Assembly: GCF_038396675.1 (NCBI RefSeq)
Contig: NC_088931.1
Span: 75,062,001-75,126,000 of the forward strand
Direction of reading: 5' to 3'
Source of the DNA: Hydra vulgaris
Taxonomy: Eukaryota > Cnidaria > Hydrozoa > Anthoathecata > Hydridae
DNA length: 64,000 nucleotides
The notes below the pieces were generated by a model, which saw only the letters and a program-made list of their open reading frames with translations, did not search any database and had not been told where the DNA came from. Positions 18,216-60,800 of the stretch are shown piece by piece. The position numbers were made by a program, and so were the translations under genes. Position 1 is the first letter of the stretch; the number at the start of each line of letters is the position of its first letter.

Positions 18216-20158
18216 ATGTGTTCAATTGGTATTGAAACAACACCTGGTTTTAAAATGTGTCCTTCAAGTCAAAAAGAAATTGTAAAAAAATAGATGATTG
18301 GTCTGCCTTACATGACTATAATGGTGAAGATAATTTTCTGGAACAAACATTTTTTGATGAAAGTATAGAAGTTGCACAAGAAAAAGAACTTATAAACACC
18401 AGTTTTGATAAATTAGATGTAAAATTTCATGGGGTCTTACAACATGCTAAAATTTCTCTAGTGGAAAGAAAATTATTGCTAGCTGCTGATGTTATGTCAA
18501 AAAAGATATCAGTTATCCTAAATGTTAACGCAACAGACCTGAAATATGTTACTGAAGAGCCCAATGTTGAAGAAAGCTGAAGATCTAGATAAATTGATGC
18601 TTTCAATGTAAGAAATGCTGAAAACTACTAACAGAAGAGAAAAGATTCATATTTTGACATTGGTTCCAGATTCATGGTTTTTAAAGAAAGCAGTTGAAGT
18701 ATTTAATATATCAAAGTCAATCATAACTAAAGCAAGAAAACAAATTAAAATTTGAGTTCAAACTAGAGCATTCTTAGTCCAAAATAGGATTTTTCAAATT
18801 TGCTCAGTTAAAGTCAAAATGGTGTATTTATGCTGGTCATTAAGACCAGCATAAATACACCATTTTGACTTTAACTTTAAAAATAACCAACCCTGTTTGT
18901 ATATGTACAATACACCAAAACCTAAAGCTTATGCTTTGCGCAGTTTAACTTGAGAAGAATTACCATGAACTTGTAAAGAAGATTGTTTGTAATTGTTGCC
19001 CTGGAACTCAGAGTATTATCAAGTATATAACTTCAAATATATTGGAAAAAAAAAGGATCATTTGAAAAGAATGACAAAGTTGATAAAGATGAAACAATTA
19101 GATATAAACAGTGGAGTACAACAGATAGAGCAAAACTTCTAAGTTACTCATCTACAGTAGGCGAAATCATTGAAAGTTTTAATGAAAAACTTGATAGTAT
19201 AACATCTCACTTTTATATTGCTAATGCACAAGGTAAATATTTGAATGTATTAAAGTCATCTATACCAATAAATAAAATTACTGTTTTGGTTGATTTTGCA
19301 GAAAAATTTAAGTTTGCCATACAAGACAAAATCTTGAGCTACCACTGGATCTAACAGCGATGCACACTACATACTGTATTTATTTAAAACAAAAATGATT
19401 AGGGTGCTACTAAAAGTCAACCAACGCATTTATGTCTTATATCTGATGACTTAAGACATGATGTTGGATTCCTTTATTATATAGTAAAAAGAACTGTCCA
19501 ATTTGTACAAGAAATGTCTCCAAGTACCACAAAAGTCCACTATTTTTCTGATGATTGTGCTGGCCATTACGAAAATTGCAAATATTTTTTAAATTTATGC
19601 CACCATGTTGAAAATTTTAGGATGCAATGTGAATGAAATTTCTTTGCAACATCACATGAAAAGCTACCATTGGTGTTAAAAAGAATGGTGATGGCATTGG
19701 TGGAGCAGTTAAAGGACTTGTTTAAAGTGCTAGTCGTCAACGTCCAATTGACTTACAAATTCAGAACGCCGAAGAAATGATCAATTTTTCCAAAATATAA
19801 CATATTTATCATCCACTTCTTATTTTTTTAAAAGATATCTTTTCAGTCCGTAAATCTTTGACTCTTTGATTGAATAATGCAAGACTTAACCTGGCGCAAG
19901 AGGTCTTCACCAATTTATTCCGCAGGATGCAACAAGAATAAATGTCAAAAGAGTCTTTGAGCAGGAGGAATTTAATCTAGTATTTAACCTTACTGGTTCA
20001 ATGCAATATCATCAAGAAGTCATTGCTGGAAAATATTATATCTGCAAATACGATATGGTTGGTTTGGTACTTGAAGTTGATGAAAAAAATGAAGACGCCC
20101 TTGTAAAATTCATGCATCCTCATTTACCTAACACTTCTTTACACTGACCAAGTAGAGA
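18216..20158 (+). pseudogene. second, older copy of the Sola-like transposase
   Basis: It begins MCSIGIETTPG, matching MCSIGLMTSD at 1728. It continues in shifted frames: RKQIK region at 18740, FAQLKSKWCIYAG at 18800-18836, VDFAEKFKFAIQDKILSYHW at 19288-19350, FSDDCAGHYENCKYF at 19545, FFATSHEK and DGIGGAVKG at 19640-19720. These are the same blocks in the same order as at 1728-4433. It has many stops and frameshifts and a 31-bp palindromic insertion at 18808-18874. No clear TIR pair was found close by. Confidence 0.75.
18808..18874. repeat. perfect 31-bp inverted repeat, 5-nt loop
   Basis: Arms 18808-18838 and 18844-18874 are exact complements around ATTAA. The left arm is the codons for LKSKWCIYAG of the transposase. 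The right arm has no counterpart in the homologue at 1728-4433, so it is an inserted inverted copy. Confidence 0.9.
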
Positions 20159-20159
20159 T

Positions 20160-57800: not shown

Positions 57801-60800
57801 GTCGGATTTTGTTGTCTTTGTTTCTCTGAATGACAGCCATTAAAGGAATCTGCCCTTTGGGCGACCCCAATTCATTTTCATCATACTCTAACAGCCACTT
57901 CCGATCAATCCAATCCTGTAGTTCGTTTTCATAGTCTGCTCTAGCGTGTTATGGAATTCTGTACTGTGCCACTTTATTATGCAATTGGTTGGGGCTTTCT
58001 CCATCTTTCCATTTCCATTTGATTCTCCATTCAACACCATCAAAAACTGCTTCATGATCTTTCTTTTTTATTTCAATTTTCTTGACTTTGTCCCTGTTCA
58101 AAGCCGATGCTTTAGTAACTTAATCCGAACTTCGCTTTTCCCAAAGGAGAAATGGATACTCCTAGTAATTTAATGGAACTCATTCCGAGCATCATATCAA
58201 CTCCAAACGGTTGGAAGTCCACTAAAATAACTTCATCACATGCTTTAATGCCATCAACCTCAAGAATTACGACCGCTGACCCAGTGCACTGATGAACCTT
58301 TCCTTCAAACGTTACTACCTTTTGAGAGTTTGAGTACCTACATTGACTTTTGGGCAGGAATTTTTTATTCAAAATTGTCTTCGAACACCCTATGTCTACT
58401 AAAGCTGTCGCAACCATACCGTTAACTTTCAAACGAATAACAGATAATGCGCTCATTCCACTGTTGTTCAGGAGCGAGGTAGCAGAGATTCCTCGCTCCT
58501 GCAATCGTTTCCCTGCAGCTTCCAGCATTTCGATGCAATGTGTCCTTTCTCACCACATTTAAAACATCTAACAGTCTTCGGTGACAAGTTCTTCGCAAGC
58601 AAACAATTCTTTGCAATGTGATTCAGACCTTTGCAGTTGTAACACACTAACGCGGTTTTTGTAGCATGGCGTCTAGATACAGCGCCAACAGCATCACTGT
58701 CAATCACATTTGCACAGTTCAAAGCAGCTCTCACTCTGGGTAACATTATATCAATCGGGTCCATTACGGCTCGAAATCTTGATGATAAGACTTCTGGCAA
58801 ACAACAACAAACACCAAATGCACAGACTCCTCTGGTAATTTAGCAAGATAGGCTAACCGTCTTAAATCAGCCAAAAACACATCAGCTTTTTCTCTGTCAC
58901 ATAATTTTTGTTTTGTAAACAGTTCATATGCAGTATAGGCATCTACAGAAAACGCCACTAATAACACACGCTCGACTTCCACTACATCTTTTTTATCTTC
59001 CGCGGTTAAAGCATCGTATACTGCATAAGCAGCTTCTCTGAGAAGAATCGGAAAAATTAGTTCAAGCTTTAAGTTCTGAATTTTAGCAATCACTTTCGTT
59101 TGTTGAATCCAAACAGCGGCATCCGAAGTGCCATCATACATTTCAAACATATCAAATAATCTCATACTTGGTTCCATGCCCGGTTAGCTTGTAGTTTTTT
59201 CTCGTAATCAACAAATTAATAAACAGCAATAATCTTTTCTCCTAACTAAAACTCTGTTTTTACAAATTTTTTCCTCAATATATATACTCTATGCTTTTCC
59301 TAAAATATCCTTCCAAACACCGTCATAAATCACCGCAAAAACATATATACAATTATTATTGGTGAAAACTATTAAAGCTATTAAATTCCTAACGTCATTA
59401 AATGTTCTAGAACTTTCCGGAATTACACATCACGATATACAAAAGAGCATAAACTAGTAACTACTTGACACCAGCTAAATAACAGCTACTGAAGTTGTCG
59501 GAAAGCTTGAAGAAATATTCTCTTTGGACAGCCAGTTTGTCTTCTATGTTAATTTGGAATATCGAGCACCACATCGAGCTCAAGGTACTGGTATAGTTGA
59601 ACGCATACACAAAACAATAAAAAGAACAGTCGCTCACTCACATTGTTCAATTGCTCTGGCAGTCTTGCTGTAAAATGAGACAATATCATCCAATTGTACT
59701 GAAAGTCCATCTTAGTAATTCAAGAAAAAACCAATTTATTTCATACCAGGTGTCAATACACGGAGGAAAGCAGACAAGAAAGGTGTAGTACGAAAGCAAA
59801 ATACCTTGTTATTCGACGTGGAAACTGCAAATCAGGTATATCCATGTCACATTTCAGACCTGTGTCACCGTACTCCAGACTTACAGAGATCAAATGAATC
59901 AGTCAATAATGCTTTTGGTAGACTAAAAGATCAAACTGATAACGCTAAAGGAAGATATAACATTGATATCGCTCAAGTTCAAAATGATTCTCTAGAACCT
60001 TACGTACGAACAGTAAGGTCTCACAAAGAGTAGATTTATGAGTTTTTTTTTTGTTTTTTTTTGTTATTCACCTCCTCAAGGCCAAGAAGGCCACTACAGA
60101 TAAGGAGGCTACTTAATAGTGGTTATCACCCTCTCTCAACTCTATAACTCCGAAACACGAACCTCGAGGAACAAGGCCGCTGCGCAGAGAAACAAGTTGA
60201 GAGCGGTACTACCAGGGACGTGGTGGGGATCGAACTCGGAACCTCTTGCTTATAAAGCGAGCGCTTTACCACAACACCACTACCACATTAATTCACCAAG
60301 AGGGCATGTTCTATTTTAAGGTTGGTGAATTCTAATTATACATGTTAGAAATCACCAGGGTTGATTGGTTTAAACCAATGGTTTAAACCATGGATTTAAA
60401 ATGGATATACCTGATTTGCAGTTTCCACGTCGAATAACAAGGTATTTTGCTTTCCTACTACACCTGGTATCTACGGCTGGTCACATTTTGTTTCTTGAGT
60501 TAGTTTTACCCAAACCAAATTAACATAGAATAAACATGTTACCATTTTTATCAACTCATAAAAAAAAATATTGGAAACTTGATAAAAAACTCTTCAGACT
60601 ATCAGTGATGCTTATTTCCATGCAAACACGCAAGATCCTAGATATTTTGAGTCTAATCTTTCTGAAAATGAAAATAAAGCTGAAATGACCTTTAGAGAAT
60701 AAGAGTTTAAGAGCTTGGAACCAAAATATTCAAGTTGAAAGCCAAATCTGCTCTATTCAATAAAATCTATTTGTATAGTAAATCTGTTATAAAAAAATGT

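Follow-up and report, generated by a model that had tools for sequence, protein, structure and literature searches.

Short inverted repeats of the Hydra vulgaris genome as probable scars of short-range template switching

Close inverted repeats in the window and across the genome

The window, i.e., the whole 64-kb stretch of Hydra vulgaris DNA analysed here (C12:75062001-75126000), has a GC content of 29% and belongs to a genome of 911.5 Mb in 15 contigs; for the AEP haplotype of H. vulgaris, the published description gives 15 chromosomes and 912 Mb (PMC12220107). A preliminary description had listed seven inverted repeats in the window, here called sites A to F and the long-range pair 59780/60399, and all of them were found in place when their coordinates were read back (features below are given in window coordinates, with no strand assigned). 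For site A, the repeat itself was right and the 31-bp arms given for it were not, the maximal arms being 33 nt. Larger structures are present as well. Inverted terminal repeats of 472 nt (89%) at 721-4971 surround ORFs at 1964-4433, three of which gave no Pfam match, and the whole is possibly a DNA transposon of an unnamed kind. Three long fold-back elements at 62004-62482, 38635-38966 and 15804-16044, with arms of 215, 96 and 96 nt that are 90-98% complementary, are probably MITE-like and separate from the short snap-back repeats. Very long (TA)n tracts occupy 29220-29660, 34285-34457 and 63656-63805, reaching up to about 217 repeat units.

To count the close inverted repeats, we accepted perfect repeats with arms of at least 12 nt, loops of at most 20 nt and a dinucleotide entropy of at least 2.3 (filter 1). 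The results clearly showed an excess: nine repeats in the window vs. means of 0.24-0.31 (maximum 2) in local Markov shuffles, made at four orders with 100 shuffles per order, and no mirror repeats at all. Five of the nine are sites A, B, C, E and F, and the remaining four start at 15764, 38832, 51005 and 60366, the first two of which sit within or adjoin longer fold-back elements. A second filter with overlaps merged (filter 2), which happens to exclude site A, left seven repeats compared to 0.12-0.28 in shuffles. Without filtering, 731 inverted and 756 mirror matches were counted, so that the excess becomes visible only once simple repeats are removed. Close direct repeats were also numerous (42 vs. 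0.8 in order-2 shuffles), but order-5 shuffles gave 18.8, an only about twofold excess. As loop-out copying should yield such direct repeats too, this weighs against the template-switch reading given below.

The same analysis was extended to 20 stretches at round coordinates on 13 of the 15 contigs (185 kb without N). Filter 1 gave 37 repeats here, overlapping registers included, when compared to a mean of 0.95 and a maximum of 3 in 20 shuffles; for arms of at least 15 nt the figures were 22 and 0, with filter 2 they were 32 and 0.7-1.2, and mirror repeats were again absent. A mismatch-tolerant scan found eight inverted repeats in the window and 30 in the sample, five of the latter being fold-back-like with arms over 50 nt, and no mirror repeats in either. 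The window is thus ordinary for its genome in inverted-repeat density, and the excess over shuffled sequence, about 30-40-fold, is seen both in the window and in the 185 kb elsewhere. Extrapolated from 0.11-0.2 per kb, there would be some 100,000 such repeats per genome as an order of magnitude; the scan by this method covers the Hydra genome alone.

One-armed relatives of the hairpins

Site A (18806-18876), located in a dispersed repeat copy, consists of a native arm (18806-18838) and an inserted arm (18844-18876) of 33 nt each, separated by the 5-nt loop ATTAA. Among the 40 of 118 candidate paralogues that were scored, all 38 spanning rows were 38-44 nt shorter than the window copy, and the seven paralogues read at the base level had arm 1 alone. 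In these seven, ...GCTGGTCA is joined to about AAAGGAACCC (with a further small gap in L006), such that the window copy has a surplus of 39 bases; arm 1 in reverse complement makes up their core. Moreover, where the paralogues have GCC in arm 1, the window has GTC, and arm 2 reproduces the window's T. The site is flanked by the short direct repeat TTAA. Another copy of this family, L008, bears two more inverted inserts, one of them made in two rounds.

At site B (27433-27486), arms of 17 nt (27448-27464 and 27470-27486) enclose a 5-nt loop, and a direct copy starting from 27433 adjoins the inverted repeat. Here, the 30-nt insert 27435-27464 is the reverse complement of the native 27470-27486, made twice in tandem. 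All 17 spanning paralogue rows were shorter by 13-59 nt, the eight that were read (8/8) were devoid of the insert, and at the protein level the window frame has 12 residues at a point where 119 of the 120 listed homologues (153 hits) have two and one has none. It had been proposed that in three cases the second arm is inserted material copied from the first; the insertion of one arm was borne out, but at site B it is the first arm on the + strand that was inserted.

Site C (32429-32477; native arm 32429-32446, insert about 32460-32477, arms of 18 nt, loop 13) lies inside a high-copy element, presumably LINE-like, where the insert stands in place of GGG. A Pfam search with this element gave no match above the cut-off, and the Pfam matches of ten transposon fragments were all sub-threshold. 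With 40 of 590 candidates scored, all 39 spanning copies fell short of the window copy in length; the difference was 7 nt in L049 and 14 nt in the other 38. Five copies were read: four show GGGG at this point, and the fifth, L049, bears another snap-back of its own there, with an insert that agrees with the one-armed copies over 13 nt but with L049's first arm over only 9 nt. That one GGGG should have received two distinct snap-backs might point to a hot spot; among 290 genome places, however, none of the first 100 listed carries an insert, and any hot spot is mild.

A further site, K, was not in the preliminary description (34048-34092; native arm 34048-34068, inserted arm 34072-34092). Its 21-nt arms have one mismatch and a 3-nt loop, about five bases were lost, and the inserted arm is absent from all three paralogues found in the sampled sequence (L025, L026 and L028). 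At site E (52703-52738), with 15-nt arms and a 5-nt loop (52703-52717/52723-52737), an insert at about 52724-52738 next to the native 52703-52717 replaces some 55 bp, and the sole paralogue, L010, from the segmental duplicate treated below, has arm 1 only, together with the other bases. L010 is also the sole paralogue of site F (53110-53146; arms 53110-53127 and 53129-53146, 18 nt, loop 1), and it lacks the 23-nt insertion which, next to the native 53110-53127, has TAATGG on each side. With a single relative for each of sites E and F, the direction of the change there is deduced from the palindrome itself.

Five of the 30 mismatch-tolerant repeats of the sample were compared with relatives. 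Clean one-armed relatives were found for L037_5877 and L025_7162, the latter with an insert of 68 nt made in more than one copying round. L020_4445 and L029_9595 are missing from their relatives, but since more than one arm length differs there, the direction of the change can be read with less certainty. In the case of L029_9647, the relative already looks partly palindromic, so that an older quasi-palindrome may have been perfected here. Another palindrome, L037:5834, is common to both copies and hence older.

Taken together, one-armed relatives exist for sites A, B, C, E, F and K and for the 45573 insert described below, with the extra arm private to one copy; family members already carrying both arms, which would have spoken against an insertion, were not what was found at the five listed sites A, B, C, E and F or at the two unlisted ones. 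The extra arm is absent from relatives, is of local origin, and has the same bases as its own copy. This bears directly on the possibility that the hairpins belong to fold-back or MITE families. Such elements do exist in the genome, and L027 and L031 share one; dispersed copies sharing both arms were, however, not found at A, B, C and K, and with one arm missing from relatives at A, B, C, E, F and K, we regard this origin as extremely unlikely. An artefact of sequencing or assembly might be suspected, given arms that are mostly perfect and private to one copy, but some arms are mismatched and site D is common to diverged duplicates. Furthermore, the published AEP assembly, which we infer to be the same as or close to ours, is described as HiFi contigs with Nanopore gap filling (PMC12220107), and an artefact seems very improbable.

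A segmental duplication and the rate of insertion

The part of the window between 43590 and 61370 is duplicated in the inverted orientation some 80-100 kb away. Such segmental duplicates hold many private insertions and so make a useful record of indel mutation. We aligned 44301-55640 with the other copy (C12:75008356-75022812) and obtained 9387 matches, 669 mismatches and 116 indel events, i.e., a substitution divergence of about 6.7%. Among 29 insertions with lengths of 10-130 nt, the test found four that repeat their flank in inverted form and occur on one side only: sites E and F, a palindrome with 15-nt arms in the duplicate, and a 59-nt insert at 45573-45631. The last one, unlisted before and not present in the duplicate, contains the immediately upstream sequence as an imperfect inverted copy (inverted match score 15, p 0.003) and an inner hairpin. 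Two further candidates tagged as inverted were excluded, since one (at 44403) is a microsatellite and the other (at 3283 of the duplicate) a direct duplication.

The duplicate thus gave four snap-backs per 669 substitutions, or 1 per 167, and the site A family gave three per 1205 (about 1 per 400) in seven comparisons with L003, the window copy included, with all three events in L008 and the window copy. The pooled rate is 1 per 268 substitutions (Poisson range 1 per 130 to 1 per 666); the counts behind it are small (4 + 3), and A, E and F were known before counting, their exclusion leaving 4 per 1874. If the rate is constant and substitutions erode the perfect pairs, 0.09-0.2 such pairs per kb are predicted. 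As this is close to the observed 0.11-0.2 per kb, neither a burst nor selection is needed. In great apes, the corresponding rate is roughly 1 per 15,000 substitutions, from divergences taken as general background and with methods that differ from those of the Hydra count.

Site D (46880-46920; 19-nt arms, loop 3) is AT-rich, fails the complexity filter and is present in both segmental duplicates, and is therefore older than the duplication. Between the two copies there is one paired change (A..T in the window, G..C in the duplicate) and one that is unpaired, and the ends vary slightly. Since it is common to both duplicates and its origin is not seen, site D was left unconfirmed as a snap-back insertion. 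Together with L037:5834, it indicates that not every such repeat is new.

The paired change at site D is what one might expect if the hairpins were kept by selection for RNA or DNA structure. Paired changes can, however, also stem from template switching, according to PMC8794818, and the change looks as a later correction of one arm by the other would make it. Sites A, B and C interrupt transposon frames, and Rfam at the gathering score gave no matches over the whole window. We give selection for structure next to no credence as the explanation; the excess together with the one-armed relatives supports the earlier proposal of a frequent mutational process rather than a sequence selected for structure.

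The long inverted pair (59781-59852/60394-60465, 72 nt, 94%, with 541 nt between the arms), also described before as a snap-back, was dropped from this class. Its segment 60402-60515 matches 38 other places at 80-89%, so that we are dealing with a dispersed repeat family, and local copying was not demonstrated. The two inverted pieces of this family are 98% identical over 65 nt (60401-60465 vs. 59781-59845), and local conversion or copying is possible. The duplicate also lacks a 641-bp insertion at 48406-49046, which holds a fold-back element (48474-48984) and has ACTGTACA at its start and again after its end; this pair looks like an 8-bp target-site duplication.

Possible routes of template switching

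The results lead us to consider the repeats, very probably, as mutational scars left when DNA synthesis switched template over a short range, be it at replication forks, in Pol theta end joining, or in both. A growing 3' end would leave its template during DNA synthesis, copy some 10-35 nt of the nearby sequence in the reverse direction, and rejoin at or near the point of departure, at times after a second copying round and in some events with the loss of 3-55 bp. One route would be a stalled fork from which synthesis switches to the nascent or opposite strand; the other would be Pol theta end joining, in which broken ends, e.g., those left by cut-and-paste transposons, prime themselves by snapping back. 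The enzymatic step and the steady high rate are what we infer, and we think that both routes contribute.

In the seven reconstructed events, the insert was copied from the sequence close to the break site, the junction overlaps were 0-2 nt (raw lengths), and the losses ranged from 0 to 55 bp, falling at C, E and K, with none in the alignments at A, B and F. Untemplated bases (2-3) were seen at A and K, and repeated copying at site B, in L008 and in L025. The new arms carry the differing bases of their own copy at A, C and F. Loops of 0-20 nt were scanned, and the commonest were of 0-6 nt. Loops of at least 3 nt allow self-priming and so suit a snap-back, whereas loops of 0-2 nt, and the L049 insert matching bases absent from its own first arm, suit a switch to the opposite strand. 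The direct repeats at A (TTAA) and F (TAATGG) resemble what the filling of a staggered break, or a return to a point further upstream, would leave.

Replication-fork switching alone, as in great apes, would account for the events that require inter-strand geometry, but repeated rounds and losses on the 55-bp scale are more typical of end joining. The net outcome is mostly an insertion, in Hydra as in the ape data (PMC7954356), and we rate this single route as a serious candidate that falls a little short of an even chance. Pol theta alone, by TMEJ or SD-MMEJ at double-strand breaks, seems possible, though less likely than not. The Pol theta polymerase domain is present in the genome: a frame at C12:57734506-57735867 matches nearly the whole family A polymerase profile and is closest to Pol theta (E 2e-130 vs. 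5e-51 to Pol nu), in a search where genes split into many exons could be missed. DNA transposons are reported to make up 34.2% of the AEP genome (PMC12220107), and the repeated copying, short overlaps, losses at C, E and K, and inverted inserts fit what is described for this polymerase (PMC9962433, PMC4490562). On the other hand, the alignments reveal no loss at A, B and F, the copied stretches of 15-33 nt are longer than the 3-10 nt that PMC9962433 calls usual, and loops of 0-2 nt as well as L049 require another strand as a template.

The kind of process is known, and its density and rate in Hydra may be new. In great apes, 4017 significant short-range template switch events were described by Walker et al. 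2021, where 65.0% of the gold-standard events lengthen the sequence and the median copied length is 12 (PMC7954356). As reported there, those are likewise local reverse-complement copies, mostly lengthening, with both intra- and inter-strand routes considered; the difference lies in the frequency, 1 per ~170 (4/669) and ~400 (3/1205) substitutions in Hydra, with detection methods that differ. The templated insertions made by Pol theta, as described in PMC4490562 and PMC9962433, share flank-copied inserts, short overlaps, repeated rounds and inverted inserts by snap-back, whereas the Hydra copies are longer, often come without deletion and are known from the sequence alone; the helicase domain of Pol theta is said to suppress snap-back (PMC9962433). 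Quasi-palindrome correction by template switching makes arms identical in the accounts of PMC3820800 and PMC8604942, and D and L029_9647 may be cases of it, in contrast to A, B, C, E, F and K, where arms were added rather than an old pair corrected. Many perfect inverted repeats are also described for the coding palindromes of Nematomorpha mitochondria, but those lie in mitochondrial genes with arms up to 284 bp (PMC6649704), and the Hydra ones are nuclear and mostly in broken repeats. A limited search of the literature for template switching, inverted repeats or templated insertions in Hydra or cnidarians gave no such paper among the entries listed, and the main text of PMC12220107 makes no mention of inverted repeats, palindromes, microhomology or snap-back.

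Whether Hydra has an unusually strong snap-back or template-switch process, tens of times that of apes relative to substitutions, is to our mind an evenly balanced question. On this reading, young hairpins, on the order of 100,000 per genome, would keep arising, stay perfect for some time through further switching and disappear again in a steady state, and the strength of the process may be tied to constant transposon breaks or a changed Pol theta. Hairpins are often taken as functional signals, and here many short perfect ones are apparent mutation scars, which has a bearing on the origin of hairpin precursors and inverted-repeat elements. The repeat families and segmental duplicates of Hydra form a natural record where template switches can be counted and the strand geometry read, so that fork switching and Pol theta repair can be tested against each other in an animal suited to clonal culture.

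As a separate observation, the stretch L029:9540-9690 contains several overlapping inverted copies within about 100 nt, with ATAACGATC repeated, and looks as if one event involved many switches.
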